Assembly (NCBI GenBank): GCA_016870775.1
Contig: VGAK01000011.1
Coordinates: 1-57,756, forward strand
Source: Actinomycetota bacterium
GTDB lineage: Bacteria > Actinomycetota > Acidimicrobiia > Acidimicrobiales > Ilumatobacteraceae
Direction of reading: 5' to 3'
Length of the DNA: 57,756 nucleotides
The notes beneath the pieces were generated by a model, which did not search any database, was not told where the DNA came from, and saw only the letters and a list, made by a program, of their open reading frames with translations. Each line of letters opens with the position of its first letter. Position 1 is the first letter of the stretch. Below are positions 3,764-9,183 of this stretch, in pieces. Position numbers and translations under genes: made by a program.

Positions 3764-5071
3764 TCAGAATCCGAGACGGCGCGTGAGCTCCTCCACGAGG
3801 CCGTCGATCGGCACCCGCACCTGCTCCATCGAATCGCGCTCGCGCACGGTGACTGCGCCGTCCTCGAGCGAGTCGAAGTCGACAGTGACGCACAAGGGCG
3901 TTCCGATTTCGTCCTGGCGACGGTAGCGACGGCCGATCTGCTGGGTCTCGTCGTAGTCGCACATCCAGCGTGCCGCGACGCGCGAGTGGACTTCGCGCGC
4001 CAGTGGCAGCAGCGTGTCCTTCTTCGAGAGCGGCAGGACGGCCACCTTGTAGGGAGCGAGGCGAGGGTGGAGGCGCAGGATGGTGCGGGACTCGCCGTTC
4101 ACCTCCTCCTCGTCGTAGGCGGCAAGGAGGAACGCCGCCATGGTGCGGTTGGCACCCGCGGCCGGCTCCACCACGTAGGGCACATAGTGCTCGCCCGAGG
4201 CCTGGTCGAAGTACTCGAGTCGCTGCCCGGAATGGGTTGCATGCTGGGTCAGGTCGTAATCGGTGCGCTGCGCGATCCCCTCGAGCTCGCCCCACCCCCA
4301 CGGGAACATGAACTCCACGTCGCTGGTGCCCGCCGAGTAATGCGACAGCTCATCGGCATCGTGGGCTCGGATCCGCAGCATCTCGCGGGGGATACCGAGC
4401 GACACGTACCACTCCATGCGCTCGTTGCACCAGTACTCGTACCACTTCGGCCCCTCGGCCGGAGGGGCGAAGAACTCGAGCTCCATCTGCTCGAACTCGC
4501 GGGTGCGGAAGATGAAGTTGCCCGGTGTGATCTCGTTGCGGAAGCTCTTGCCCACCTGGGCAATGCCGAACGGGGGCTTCTTGCGACTGGTCTGGAGCAC
4601 GTTCGAGAAGTTCACGAACATCCCCTGTGCGGTCTCGGGTCGCAGGTACACCTCGGCACCCGAGCCCTCCACCGGACCAGCCGTGGTCTTGAACATCAGG
4701 TTGAAGGCGCGCGCCTCGGTGAACTGGCAACCCTTCATCGACTGTGGGCAGTCCCTCGTCTCGAGTTGGTCCTCGCGGAACCGCCGCTTGCAGACCGTGC
4801 AATCGACCAGCGGGTCGGAGAAATTCGCGAGGTGACCCGATGCCTCGAAGACCTGCGGTGGACCGAGTATCGCGGCGTCGATCAGCACGGTGTCGTCGCG
4901 CATCTGGACCATCGTGCGCACCCATGCGTCCTTCACGTTCCTCAGCATCAACGACCCGAGCGGGCCGTAGTCGTAGGAGGACCGGAATCCGCCGTAGATC
5001 TCCGCGCTCGGATACACGAAACCGCGCCGCTTGCAGAGATTGACGATCTGTTCGAGATCCTTGGCGGGCAC
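3764..5071 (-). CDS. glyS: Glycyl-tRNA synthetase, alpha2 (single-chain) type
   Basis: Attaches glycine to tRNA-Gly in the cytoplasm. The 435-aa chain is the homodimeric type found in actinobacteria and eukaryotes, not the alpha2beta2 type. It shows the N-terminal YPSAEIYGGFRSSYDYGPLG block, a CxxC pair facing a second cysteine-rich turn, LRPETAQGMFVNF, the class II motif 2 (FRNEITPGNF with RTREFEQME) and motif 3 near PAAGANRTMAAFLL, then an anticodon-binding domain. The frame is open much further upstream, but that is antisense to nothing useful and overlaps recO; the GTG at 5071 lies 11 bases after the recO stop with AGGATCGGGG in front and gives a normal N-terminus. Confidence 0.95.
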   Translation of the reverse strand: MPAKDLEQIVNLCKRRGFVYPSAEIYGGFRSSYDYGPLGSLMLRNVKDAWVRTMVQMRDDTVLIDAAILGPPQVFEASGHLANFSDPLVDCTVCKRRFREDQLETRDCPQSMKGCQFTEARAFNLMFKTTAGPVEGSGAEVYLRPETAQGMFVNFSNVLQTSRKKPPFGIAQVGKSFRNEITPGNFIFRTREFEQMELEFFAPPAEGPKWYEYWCNERMEWYVSLGIPREMLRIRAHDADELSHYSAGTSDVEFMFPWGWGELEGIAQRTDYDLTQHATHSGQRLEYFDQASGEHYVPYVVEPAAGANRTMAAFLLAAYDEEEVNGESRTILRLHPRLAPYKVAVLPLSKKDTLLPLAREVHSRVAARWMCDYDETQQIGRRYRRQDEIGTPLCVTVDFDSLEDGAVTVRERDSMEQVRVPIDGLVEELTRRLGF

Positions 5072-5082
5072 GAACCCCGATC

Positions 5083-5802
5083 CTACAAGTGGCGGTCGAA
5101 CGACCCGAGCGCCCTCAGGCGCCGCTCGAGATGGTGCTCCATCGCATCCATCGCGATTGCGCTCGTCTCCCCCGCCGCGGCGGTGTCTCCCTCGGCGAGC
5201 GCGTCGCGCACCCGGCCCGACAGGATCGCCCTCATCAACCGGATCGCCGCATCGGACACCGGTTGACCCGGCCCGCAACTCGGACACATCACGCCGCCCT
5301 CGTCCACGTCGAAGACGAACCGCCCCTCCCTCGCGCCGCACCTGAGGCAACCGGCGAGGCTCGGTGCGCGACCCTCCAGGGCCAGGAGGCGCAGGAAGAA
5401 GGCGCCGAGCACGAGCGGTGATGGATCGGTGTCGAGGGTGCGGAGACCCTTCACCAGCATCTCGTGGATCTCGGGCACCGGTTCGCGGTCGGGCGTCATC
5501 TTGTCGACGGCCTCGACCATCGACAGTCCCTGCTGGACGCGCGCGAGGTCGGCACGCACGCGCGGGTGGTTCTCGACGAGGCGCACCTCGGCCACGGTGT
5601 CGAGATCGCGACCCGACCGGAGCGAGACATCGACATGGCTCATCGGCTCGAGGCGCGCACCGATCGATGACCTCGTCTTGCGCACGCCGCGGGCGACCGC
5701 ACGCACCTTGCCGTGCTCGCGCGTGAGGATCACAACCACCCGGTCTGCCTCGCCGAACTTGTGGGTGCGGAGCACCACACCGGAATCGCGGTACGTCGGC
5801 AC
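5083..5802 (-). CDS. recO: DNA repair protein RecO
   Basis: RecO works with RecR and RecF to load RecA onto SSB-coated single-stranded DNA in gap repair. The 239-aa protein has the N-terminal OB fold (YRDSGVVLRTHKFGEADRVV), a helical domain, and a C-terminal zinc site formed by CLRCG and CPSCG about 20 residues apart. The GTG at 5802 is preceded by GGCGGTGG and starts two residues before the conserved YRDSG; the frame is open 31 codons further up without family similarity. It lies 19 bases after the cis-prenyltransferase-like gene and 11 bases before glyS, so the three form an operon. A recO-uppS neighbourhood is common in actinobacteria. Confidence 0.95.
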   Translation of the reverse strand: MPTYRDSGVVLRTHKFGEADRVVVILTREHGKVRAVARGVRKTRSSIGARLEPMSHVDVSLRSGRDLDTVAEVRLVENHPRVRADLARVQQGLSMVEAVDKMTPDREPVPEIHEMLVKGLRTLDTDPSPLVLGAFFLRLLALEGRAPSLAGCLRCGAREGRFVFDVDEGGVMCPSCGPGQPVSDAAIRLMRAILSGRVRDALAEGDTAAAGETSAIAMDAMEHHLERRLRALGSFDRHL

Positions 5803-5821: not shown

Positions 5822-6460
5822 TCATGAGTCGAGACCACCGAATCGACGGTGCCGCCGGTTGAAGTCGTCGATCGCGGACTCGAGGTGCCCCGCATTCAGC
5901 GATTCCCACGCCAGGTCGAGGAAGACCAGTTCGCTGTATGCCAGCTCCCACACCAGCGACGTCGGCAGCATGTCGGGCCGACCGAGCACCACGACCAAGT
6001 CGGGCTCATCTCCCGCGGGCGCCAGGATCGCTCGCGAGATCATCGCCTCGTCGACCTCGACGACACCCGATGAACTCAGTGCCGCGACCGCGTCGGCGAA
6101 GCGAACATGGCCGTCGGGGGATGGATCGACGATCACCGTCAACCCGTCGTCACGGCGACTGGCTCTTCGACTGGGTCGCCAGTGCTCGCTCCACTCGACC
6201 TTGCCGGTCCCATCCAGAGCCTCGAACATCGCAGCGGCAGCGGCGGCATCGAGTGCATCGCCGCCGTGCGGCAGCAAGGTCACCCAGCGGGCGCCCCCGG
6301 CGGCACCACCGGCGGCGAGGAGATCGAGCCGGGTGCGCCAGTGCTGTGTCGACATCTGCGCCCACTCCCGCGGGGTCCCACCGGCCACGACCACGTGGCT
6401 GAGGAGACCGCCGGGGTCCTGGCCGGACTCCCGTCCCCTGCGATCGGACACTGAGACCAC
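5822..6460 (-). CDS. Non-catalytic cis-prenyltransferase homologue with intact RxG tail
   Basis: A 212-aa protein that aligns along its whole length with undecaprenyl diphosphate synthase but lacks the catalytic motifs. HVVVAGGTPREW (22-33) stands where UppS has HVxxIMDGNGRW, PHGGD (64-68) replaces FSTEN, DPSPDGH (112-118) replaces the YGGR segment, and VLGRPD (158-163) replaces RTSGE. It keeps the C-terminal part: WELAYSELVFLDLAW (171-185) and the terminal RRHRRFGG, that is the RxG motif. The neighbouring plus-strand UppS shows the opposite pattern. By analogy with the eukaryotic NgBR/Nus1 subunit this could be the accessory subunit of a heteromeric enzyme; decay of an old paralogue is the alternative, but the clean frame argues against it. 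GTG 6460 has GGGAG 10 bases upstream. Confidence 0.8.
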   Translation of the reverse strand: MVSVSDRRGRESGQDPGGLLSHVVVAGGTPREWAQMSTQHWRTRLDLLAAGGAAGGARWVTLLPHGGDALDAAAAAAMFEALDGTGKVEWSEHWRPSRRASRRDDGLTVIVDPSPDGHVRFADAVAALSSSGVVEVDEAMISRAILAPAGDEPDLVVVLGRPDMLPTSLVWELAYSELVFLDLAWESLNAGHLESAIDDFNRRHRRFGGLDS

Positions 6461-6538
6461 GTTGGTGAGTCTCCCACGACCCGTGCCCCGTGGTGCCGAC
6501 ACGGGCACGCAACTCCCCCTCACTAGGGTGATCCTCCG

Positions 6539-7243
6539 ATGACAGGAGCCCCCGAGGACCGAAAGATCCATGTCGCGTGCATCATGGACGGCAACGGCCG
6601 TTGGGCGCGGCGCCGGGGACTTCCCCGCACCGAGGGCCACACCGCGGGCGAGGAGGCATTGGCGACTGTGGTGCGTGCCGCGGCCGCACGCGACGTCGGA
6701 TGGCTGACGGTGTTCGGTTTCTCGACGGAGAACTGGGTGCGACCGCGCTCCGAGGTGCGCCACATACTGTCCCTTCACCGCAAGCTCTTCGCGCGCACCG
6801 CCGAGATGGACGCGAACAACGCCCGCTCGAGTTGGATCGGGCGGCCCTTCGACGAACCGGGGGCCCGCACACCAGTGGAGGTGCAGCGTGCGATCGGCAA
6901 GGCCATGGCCGACACCGCAGGCAACGACGGACTCGTCGTGACGGTGGCATTCGACTACGGGAGCCGCGCCGAACTGGTCCGCGCCGCCTCGCGCACCATC
7001 GCCGCCTCCGGCGGGGACTGCGCCCTGATCGGGGCGGCCTCGATCGGGGCCAATCTCTACGACCCCGATCTGCCCCCTGTCGACCTGCTCGTGCGAACCT
7101 CTGGCGAGACACGCATCTCCAACTTCCTTCTCTGGCAGATCAAGGGGGCCAAGGTGCACTTCACCGAGCGCACCTGGCCCGACTTCGACGCCGCCGAACT
7201 GGACAGGGCCCTCGCGCTGCTGGCGCGCGGCCCGAGCGCGTGA
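6539..7243 (+). CDS. uppS: Undecaprenyl diphosphate synthase, catalytic, lacking C-terminal RxG
   Basis: Extends farnesyl diphosphate with isopentenyl diphosphate in cis to make the undecaprenyl carrier of cell-wall synthesis. The 234-aa chain has IMDGNGRW with catalytic Asp17, FSTENW (61-66), and RTSGETRISNFLLWQ (186-200). It is odd at the C-terminus: IKGAKVHFTERTWPDF replaces the usual AYAELxF interface segment and the chain ends ALLARGPSA, without the RRFGG tail. The divergent gene 78 bases away has exactly these missing parts. TAGGGT at 6524-6529 lies 9 bases before the ATG with no clear ribosome binding site. The stop overlaps the dinG start by 4 bases. Confidence 0.9.
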   Translation: MTGAPEDRKIHVACIMDGNGRWARRRGLPRTEGHTAGEEALATVVRAAAARDVGWLTVFGFSTENWVRPRSEVRHILSLHRKLFARTAEMDANNARSSWIGRPFDEPGARTPVEVQRAIGKAMADTAGNDGLVVTVAFDYGSRAELVRAASRTIAASGGDCALIGAASIGANLYDPDLPPVDLLVRTSGETRISNFLLWQIKGAKVHFTERTWPDFDAAELDRALALLARGPSA

Positions 7244-9183
7244 GCGGGTCGGGCGCGGGTCGCGAGGCGATCGAGGCGCTTCGGCGCGTGGTGTCGGTGA
7301 TGCCCGGTGCCGAGGAGCGTCAGGGCCAGATCGACATGGTGCACTCGGTCGCAGAAGCGATCGCTGCGGAACGCTCGATCATCGTCCAGGCCGGCACGGG
7401 CACCGGCAAATCCCTCGGTTACCTGGTGCCCGCGATCCTGAGCGGACGGCGCACCGTGGTGGCGACGGCGACGAAGTCCCTCCAGGACCAGCTCAGCCGC
7501 AATGATCTGCCCTTGCTGCGCGACAATCTCGGCACAGACTTCACGTGGGCCGTGGTCAAGGGCCGGGGCAACTATGTCTGTCTGCAACGCATCGCCGAAT
7601 TGGCCAAGGGATCGGCGCAGCCCGAGTTCGACGAGGTGGCCGGTCGTGCCCGCACCCAACTGAGGGCGGAGCTCGATGCGATCGCGGCGTGGGCCGAAGA
7701 GTCGTCCACTGGCGACCTCGAGGAGTTCGACTCAAACCCCAGTCAGAGGGCGCGCGCCGCGGTGACGGTGTCATCCGACGAATGCCCGGGGCGCACCAAG
7801 TGTCCCGTCGGCGATCGCTGCTTCGCCGAGAGGGCGCGCGCCGCGGCAGACGCCGCGGATGTGATCGTGGTGAATCTCCACCTCTACGGCTTCGACATCG
7901 CCTCCCAGGGCGCGATCCTGCCCGCCCACGATCTCGTGGTCTTCGACGAGGTGCACCAACTCGAATCGGTGATGAGCGACACTGTCGGCGTCGACCTCTC
8001 GAATGGTCGTGTTGCTTCGCTCGCGGGTGCCGTGCGCCGGGTCGTCGCGGACCGGGGCGTCACCGACTCGCTCGAGAACGCGGGGCTGCGCTTCTCCGAG
8101 GCGATCTCACCGCTCCACGGGGACCGTGTCACCATTCCCCTGCCGACACCGATCGCCGACACGCTCTCGGTCCTGCGCATCGAGACCGCCGCGATCATCC
8201 GGGTGCTGCGCGAGATAGAGACCGACAACGAGGCGACCGACCAGCGCCGCCTGCGCGCGGTCACGCAGGCGACCCGCCTCGCCGAGGGGATCGACACCGT
8301 GCTCGGCGAGGTGCGTGGCCAGGTTGCCTACGTGGTCGGATCCGACGAGCGGCCCGTGCTCCGGGTCAGCCCCCTGCACGTGGGCGGCGTGCTCTCGTCG
8401 GGAGTGTGGGCGAACCGACCAGCCGTTCTGACGAGCGCGACGGTGCCTTTGACCCTGCCCGAGCGGGTGGGCCTGCCCACCGACGGCACCGAGGTGCTCG
8501 ACGTGCCGAGCCCCTTCGACTACGAGCGCAACACGCGTCTCTACTGTTCGCCCGAGTTCCCCGACCGCAACTCGCCGGCGTTCACACCCTTCGTCCACGA
8601 CGAACTCGAGATGTTGATCGGGGCGGCGGGCGGCCGCACCCTCGCGCTCTTCACGAGCACCAAGGCCATGCGCGAGGCGGCCGAGGCGATGCGCCAGAGA
8701 CTCCCCTTCAGCATCCTGACTCCCGATGATCATCCGCGACAGCGGCTCATCGAGATGTTCATCGAGGACGAGAGCTCGTGCATCTTCGCCTCGCAGGGGT
8801 TCTTCCAGGGCATCGATCTCCCCGGGCGCACGCTGTCGCTCGTGGTGCTCGACAAACTGCCGTTCCCACGCCCCGACGACCCCCTCCTCGAGGCCCGGCG
8901 CGAGGACGTGGGGCGCAAAGACGCGTTCCAACGGATCGACCTGCCGATCGCTGCCACCGCCCTGGCACAGGCTGCGGGGCGTCTCGTGCGCACCGCCCGG
9001 GACCGTGGGGTCGTCGCGGTGCTCGACCGCCGTCTGGCCACCATGGGCTACTGGCGCACGCTCGTGGCGGCGATGCCCCCGATGCCGCGCACGCGGAACC
9101 GCGACGAGGTCGTCGACTTCCTCGCCCACATAACCGACCCGATCACCAGCACCAACCCGAACGGGAACACGGGCCCTCAATAG
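7240..9183 (+). CDS. dinG: DinG-family ATP-dependent DNA helicase
   Basis: An XPD/Rad3-like superfamily 2 helicase of 647 aa, the family that unwinds DNA 5' to 3' and resolves R-loops, forks and damage structures. Walker A is AGTGTGKS (51-58), motif II is DEVH (236-239) rather than DEAH, and motif VI is QAAGRLVR from residue 577. Four cysteines (Cys114, Cys182, Cys188, Cys194) between motifs I and II are placed as the iron-sulfur ligands of this family. Its GTG start overlaps the uppS stop (GTGA), so the two are translationally coupled. Its last 7 bases overlap the end of era on the other strand. The symbol is by family; the exact paralogue (DinG or YoaA type) is not certain. Confidence 0.9.
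   Translation: MSGSGAGREAIEALRRVVSVMPGAEERQGQIDMVHSVAEAIAAERSIIVQAGTGTGKSLGYLVPAILSGRRTVVATATKSLQDQLSRNDLPLLRDNLGTDFTWAVVKGRGNYVCLQRIAELAKGSAQPEFDEVAGRARTQLRAELDAIAAWAEESSTGDLEEFDSNPSQRARAAVTVSSDECPGRTKCPVGDRCFAERARAAADAADVIVVNLHLYGFDIASQGAILPAHDLVVFDEVHQLESVMSDTVGVDLSNGRVASLAGAVRRVVADRGVTDSLENAGLRFSEAISPLHGDRVTIPLPTPIADTLSVLRIETAAIIRVLREIETDNEATDQRRLRAVTQATRLAEGIDTVLGEVRGQVAYVVGSDERPVLRVSPLHVGGVLSSGVWANRPAVLTSATVPLTLPERVGLPTDGTEVLDVPSPFDYERNTRLYCSPEFPDRNSPAFTPFVHDELEMLIGAAGGRTLALFTSTKAMREAAEAMRQRLPFSILTPDDHPRQRLIEMFIEDESSCIFASQGFFQGIDLPGRTLSLVVLDKLPFPRPDDPLLEARREDVGRKDAFQRIDLPIAATALAQAAGRLVRTARDRGVVAVLDRRLATMGYWRTLVAAMPPMPRTRNRDEVVDFLAHITDPITSTNPNGNTGPQ

Follow-up and report, generated by a model that had tools for sequence, protein, structure and literature searches.

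Does this actinobacterium make its undecaprenyl-type carrier lipid with one prenyltransferase chain or with two? The question is raised by two adjacent genes of the window (the whole 57,756-nucleotide stretch of DNA that was analysed), here called A and B, both of which encode relatives of the cis-prenyltransferases (cis-PTs). Split cis-PTs, made of two different proteins, have been described in eukaryotes and in an archaeon; in the literature searched there was none from bacteria. Review and structure papers, in the excerpts consulted, present the cis-PTs of bacteria as homodimeric and treat heteromers as the eukaryotic, long-chain type (PMC7839719, PMC7573591). If a split enzyme serves an essential cell-wall step here while a sister lineage has one gene, then the origin of heteromeric cis-PTs and the role of their second subunit become directly testable. 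The features of the locus are the following.

3764..5071, minus strand: glyS (glycine--tRNA ligase), downstream of recO; start codon inferred
5083..5802, minus strand: recO, downstream of B on the same strand; start codon inferred
5822..6460, minus strand: gene B, 212 aa, GTG start; predicted non-catalytic cis-prenyltransferase-like subunit
5834..5848, minus strand: RRFGG codons of B, residues 205-209 (the RxG motif), counted from the start at 6460
5924..5950, minus strand: WELAYSELV codons of B, residues 171-179, counted from the start at 6460
6461..6538, no strand: divergent intergenic region of 78 bp, from which A starts rightward and B leftward
6539..7243, plus strand: gene A, 234 aa; predicted catalytic cis-prenyltransferase subunit
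7240..9183, plus strand: DinG/YoaA-like helicase, sharing 4 bases with the end of A; start codon inferred

From left to right, glyS, recO and B are read leftward, and A and the helicase rightward. The helicase scores below the curated cut-offs of both the DinG and the YoaA models, a consensus scan of positions 6380-6640 gave no match to a sigma-70-like promoter, and tRNA and Rfam scans found no tRNA genes or Rfam RNAs across the window.

Both proteins exceed the Pfam gathering cut-off of 27 bits for PF01255 (Prenyltransf, cis-prenyltransferases), A with 208 bits across positions 1-209 of the 219 in the profile, B with 40.1 bits across positions 115-219 only. Against the TIGR00055 uppS equivalog (curated cut-off 109.55 bits), A is over at 189 bits and B under at 30.7 bits, so that automatic annotation would probably accept A as a normal UppS and offer no explanation for B. 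A carries MDGNGRW, FSTENW and RTSGE, reads IKGAKVHF at the position of AYxELxF and ends ahead of RRFGG. B has WELAYSELVF and RRFGG, with GGTPREW replacing MDGNGRW, and its WELAYSELV segment aligns with W207, Y211 and E213 of the E. coli enzyme. The original prediction had described just this exchange, with A keeping MDGNGRW, FSTEN and RTSGE without AYxELxF and RRFGG, and B keeping ELAYSELVF and RRFGG without the catalytic motifs; it is confirmed at the coordinates above and, as detailed below, across 105 pairs from related genomes. On our reading of the sequence the N-terminus of B lacks a hydrophobic anchor, and both A and B look like soluble bacterial proteins.

We propose, with a probability of roughly 0.87, that A and B are subunits of one heteromeric cis-prenyltransferase, which would be this bacterium's undecaprenyl-type diphosphate synthase. 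In such an enzyme A would bind Mg2+, the allylic diphosphate and IPP, and B would dimerize with A through the interface usual for cis-PTs, so placed that its C-terminal R-x-G tail enters the A active site as that of NgBR does for DHDDS; residues 205-209 of B are thus predicted to act in trans. Residue E213 is an interface residue of the dimer with a role in IPP binding. The conserved Glu of the AYxE segment of B would probably also enter the A active site, and since the tail of B would occupy the site of A, each A:B dimer would have one working site. What the sequences themselves show is the complementarity of residues, the co-occurrence of the genes, purifying selection, the single clade that each gene forms and the lack of any other PF01255 protein in the genomes tested for one; the complex itself, the contribution in trans, the need for both chains and the identity of the product are inferences from these.

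Co-occurrence was assessed in 126 genomes of the Ilumatobacteraceae, 32 of the window's genus and 94 of 26 other genera (7 of the genus were re-drawn). Both genes were found in 113 of the 126, adjacent and divergent in 109 and on separate contigs in the other 4, the median distance between the two starts being 65 bp over the 109 loci (start codons chosen by script). The pair is present in 24 of the 27 genera, the exceptions being g21, g28 and g40; among the 24, g43 is represented by a single genome with the pair, G073. That close relatives with A should not be missing B, on which the original prediction depended, is borne out by these 113 genomes, although B is interrupted in two of them. In these two (G141 and G073), which are fragmented assemblies, the B frame is broken by a stop codon and A is intact; the interruption could be an assembly error or real decay. 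Outside the 113, G075 and G081 have B without A, at the end of a contig, a single full-length UppS with neither A nor B was found in G058, G070 and G102, and eight genomes that are 63-84% complete (G004, G041, G044, G046, G051, G088, G103 and G135) gave no PF01255 match. One genome, G006, has a second, partial A-like gene on another contig, perhaps from a strain mixture or a duplication.

Residues were compared, in E. coli numbering, in an alignment of 105 complete pairs, 19 single UppS sequences and E. coli UppS; 8 of the 113 pairs, in which the length of A fell outside 200-260 aa or that of B outside 165-235 aa, were left out. In A, D26, G27, N28, R30 and W31 are kept in 104/105 sequences, the exception (G074) being cut at a contig end, and in G024 the motif reads IDGNGRW. 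R39, H43, S71, N74, R77, E81, R194, E198, R200 and S202 of A are kept in 105/105. Y211, by comparison, is found in 0/105, E213 in 6/105 and the RxG motif in 0/105. B presents the reverse: D26 is kept in 0/105, with Gly there in 105/105, and R194 and S202 are likewise each kept in 0/105, whereas W207, Y211 and E213 are kept in 105/105 and R242 and G244 in 104/105, where the exception (G090) is again truncated by the end of its contig. B still has certain residues of the catalytic side, W31 in 105/105 and R200 in 52/105. The 19 single UppS keep all of the residues named here, except for Leu at R242 in one.

Catalytic Asp and RxG together in one chain, as expected of a homodimeric UppS, are found in 0/105 A and 0/105 B. 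A has what marks the catalytic subunit of a heteromeric cis-PT, active-site residues without RxG (D26 in 104/105, RxG in 0/105), and B what marks the non-catalytic one, RxG without the catalytic Asp (104/105 and 0/105). Because the losses are complementary, each pair amounts to one full residue set divided over two chains. Its recurrence in 105 pairs, together with the purifying selection described below, shows that the pattern did not come about by chance. The proposal that a division of labour like that of DHDDS and NgBR may operate in a bacterium gains support from the residue pattern of these pairs.

Other positions also set the two families apart. At position 208, next to a Trp that is invariant in both, A has Gln in 105/105 and B has Glu in 105/105, a difference that is possibly an interface signature. 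At position 69 (residue 60 of A in the window) 105/105 A sequences have Gly, against Ala in 19/19 single UppS, and A has an insertion, a loop with an invariant Phe, that is absent from single UppS. The A69-to-G change and the Phe-bearing insertion may bear on the chain length of the product.

Single-chain AlphaFold models, for which 53 A and 52 B sequences were used as input (the B of G049 was left out), have pLDDT values of 90.9 for A and 87.9 for B. Among the 50 matches listed for each model, A matches UppS-type structures with TM scores of 0.78-0.87, and B matches UppS weakly, with TM scores of 0.50-0.57 and rmsd values of 5.8-13.6 Å; NUS1 is absent from the 50 matches listed for B. The A model ends after the helix at 218-229. 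Covariation between A and B, computed for 103 of the 105 pairs (G090 and G074 left out), placed 5 of the top 25 residue pairs in the interface-containing region Ec 140-223, against 4.1 expected.

DHDDS itself has no RxG motif, and the human complex that it forms with NgBR is among the known systems nearest to A and B in design. In published structures, so far as the excerpts consulted go, RxG acts across the dimer: in MtDPPS, Arg292* from one subunit is in contact with Asp76, the diphosphate and the Mg2+ waters of its partner (PMC6450523), and in the human enzyme the tail of NgBR, R290-x-G292, extends into the active site of DHDDS (PMC7573591). The division of residues between A and B follows the division between cis and trans contributions in these structures, from which we infer an A:B dimer. 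Like DHDDS/NgBR, the pair would combine a catalytic subunit without RxG and a non-catalytic partner with a C-terminal RxG that enters the partner's site (PMC7573591, in excerpt), and the profile of B reaches five human NUS1 sequences at E-values of 2.7e-5 to 8.7e-5. Unlike the human complex, A lacks the C-terminal helix-turn-helix that makes the human tetramer (a feature described in the same excerpt of PMC7573591), B lacks a hydrophobic N-terminal anchor, and the two genes are adjacent and divergent. Both proteins are closer to bacterial UppS than to DHDDS/NgBR, as judged from search E-values and not from a tree with eukaryotic sequences. A reaches bacterial cis-PTs at 1.9e-47 and DHDDS at 1.4e-25, and the B profile reaches bacterial UppS at 4e-22; since B is nearer to these than to NUS1, the pair looks like a separate origin.

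Three other systems are useful for comparison. The Methanosarcina mazei proteins MM_0618/MM_1083 form a heteromeric cis-PT with C45-50 products, likely a glycosyl carrier lipid (excerpt of PMC8131916, citing Emi et al. 2019); this is a prokaryotic heteromer like the one proposed here but an archaeal one, and the likeness is to its description only. Homodimeric UppS, such as E. coli IspU and MtDPPS, resembles A over nearly its whole length and in fold, and B in the C-terminal half and tail, but differs in that neither A nor B has both the catalytic Asp and RxG. Heptaprenyl diphosphate synthase of Bacillus subtilis likewise pairs a catalytic subunit with a non-catalytic one to make polyprenyl chains in a bacterium (PMC7839719, in excerpt), but it is a trans-enzyme, non-homologous to A or B. 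The same review, in the part consulted, assigns homodimeric cis-PTs to bacteria and plants and heteromeric ones to eukaryotes, confines bacterial heteromers to the trans-enzymes, and states that cis- and trans-enzymes have neither sequence nor fold in common (PMC7839719). Our search of the open literature (titles and abstract openings, with most subscription papers outside its scope) found no bacterial heteromeric cis-PT, and no paper in the open literature was found with both Ilumatobacter and undecaprenyl. A tentative extension, to which we would give clearly worse than even odds, is that bacteria independently evolved a synthase of the undecaprenyl type that is an obligate heterodimer, in a family whose sister lineage retains the single gene at the corresponding place, with B as a non-catalytic handle for carrier-lipid supply or chain length and a product that may differ from C55.

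The original prediction went further in expecting each protein alone to be inactive. By analogy with characterized enzymes this seems too strong: according to the excerpts consulted, human DHDDS alone is an active homodimer, with a kcat about 500-fold lower (PMC6921004), and M. mazei MM_0014 is a functional homodimer without RxG (PMC8131916). The tail has been altered in the human enzyme, where activity is 1.32 umol/h/mg without the change and 0.91 umol/h/mg with R290H, and where turnover (kcat) drops about 12-fold with G292A, and yeast Nus1 has Asn at the position of the RxG Arg (PMC7573591, in excerpt). The mild effect of R290H and the Asn of Nus1 suggest that the tail is perhaps not strictly needed. 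By the same analogy A could have weak or even full activity without a partner, and the RxG tail may help more than it is needed.

If A were in fact a complete enzyme alone, an RxG-less homodimer of the MM_0014 type, then B would be a paralogue with another job, for example regulating A or binding prenyl lipids. The activity of MM_0014 and the weak activity of DHDDS alone are consistent with such an arrangement, as is the faster evolution of B, with a mean pairwise difference of 0.59 against 0.32 for A. We nevertheless consider it improbable. B keeps the residues that act in trans or are associated with them (Y211 and E213 in 105/105, RxG in 104/105) and has lost most catalytic ones, and in A the reverse holds; A has lost Y211 in 105/105 and E213 in 99/105, both of which are kept in 19/19 single UppS; and B lies beside A in 109/113 genomes, all of which fits subunits of one enzyme better than independent paralogues.

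A heteromeric synthase made of A and B would also have to account for the carrier lipid by itself. It had been predicted that no complete UppS would be found elsewhere, and this held: no third PF01255 protein was found in the genome of the window (G000; 1.74 Mb, 80% complete) or in three other genomes with the pair (G059, G066 and G084, each a single contig and 99% complete), and among the 126 family genomes full-length matches were seen only in the three that are without A and B. MraY is present in 8/8 genomes tested, these four among them, and its presence means that an undecaprenyl-type carrier lipid is needed, for which the pair appears, from gene content, to be the only evident source in peptidoglycan synthesis. 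The changes specific to the A family (A69 to G in 105/105 and the extra Phe-bearing loop) suggest that product length may differ, and one could suppose that the product of the pair is not the peptidoglycan carrier and that a non-homologous enzyme supplies undecaprenyl diphosphate, but the three single-contig genomes have MraY and no other PF01255 protein, we know of no non-homologous UppS, and we regard this as very unlikely.

Both genes are under purifying selection, with median dN/dS values, over 50 comparisons of related genomes, of 0.089 for B (maximum 0.286) and 0.059 for A. In an alignment of 52 B sequences 16 columns are invariant, including the RxG tail. Mirror-tree comparison of A and B distances gave r = 0.755, against a maximum of 0.06 in 500 permutations, a correlation that is also expected from shared ancestry alone, as the genes are inherited together. 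It is hardly credible that B is a decaying uppS remnant left after replacement by A, for all that its catalytic motifs are gone, it sits in the ancestral uppS place and it is interrupted in two genomes, because it is full length in 105 pairs and a remnant would not retain the tail; B as a pseudogene is rejected on dN/dS and the conserved tail.

How such a pair came about was approached through trees and gene order. In a tree that joins 34 A and 34 B (from 105 each) with E. coli UppS and the 19 single UppS, the A sequences make up one clade and the B sequences another, with SH-aLRT support of 99 and 100. B falls among the UppS of the order and A outside them, but the stem branch of B, at 4.08 changes per column, is so long that the tree leaves unsettled which copy descends directly. 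Gene order favours B as the copy in the ancestral uppS place. At loci with a single UppS, recO lies beside uppS on the same strand in 16/19 (not in G026, G070 or G102), and the helicase is divergent in 5/19, where the stretch included it, G058 among them; at loci with the pair, recO is on the strand of B in 111/113 and the helicase on the strand of A in 108/113; at the remaining loci the gene was not seen in the stretch examined. From this shared order B occupies the place of uppS, and A stands between B and the helicase. G058, of a sister lineage, has one full-length ordinary uppS at the position of B, and the earlier suggestion that the non-catalytic gene sits in the recO-uppS place is well founded.

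In a tree of RecO, helicase and GlyS, with other families as outgroup, G058 is sister to 35 sampled pair genomes (95/88). With genus g40 added, G058 and g40 group together (98/93) as sister to 29 pair genomes (90/90). The simplest history is a single origin of the pair, in the common ancestor of all family members outside the {g28, g40} lineage. Another uppS-like gene would have come to stand between the divergent helicase and the original uppS and would have retained catalysis, and the gene at the ancestral site, now B, would have retained the dimer interface and tail.

Genus g40 (G070, G088 and G102) has neither uppS nor A or B between the divergent helicase and recO. In two of its genomes, G070 and G102, a different type of full-length UppS is encoded elsewhere; it groups with the UppS of G026 and has a changed tail, which in G070 reads RRRRKGS. 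In G088 (81% complete) no PF01255 match was found. This looks like replacement of the native uppS. Co-loss of A and B in g40 was considered and dropped, since g40 groups with G058 outside the pair-bearing clade and is therefore uninformative on co-loss.

Beyond the family, an order-wide search of 248 genomes found full-length PF01255 matches in other families, among the matches listed. A class-wide search of 296 genomes with the B profile recovered 22 of 23 family members at 131-251 bits, the miss being G070, and among the matches listed the rest reach at most 108.2 bits; these matches outside the family we take as ordinary UppS. Many genomes of other families of the class (for example f65, f67 and f70) have two B-profile matches among those listed, probably two ordinary cis-prenyltransferases. 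A tblastn search of plasmids with A returned 113 records, each below 60% identity. A pattern scan reaching other phyla gave 168 stretches, 167 of which were confirmed as relatives. The best 80, those listed, are mostly labelled Actinomycetota, Ilumatobacteraceae, Ilumatobacter, Acidimicrobiaceae or Acidimicrobium, with 'acIV' actinobacteria also named, and the few of these 80 that are labelled Ferrithrix, Bifidobacterium breve or Acidobacteria are presumably mislabelled bins.
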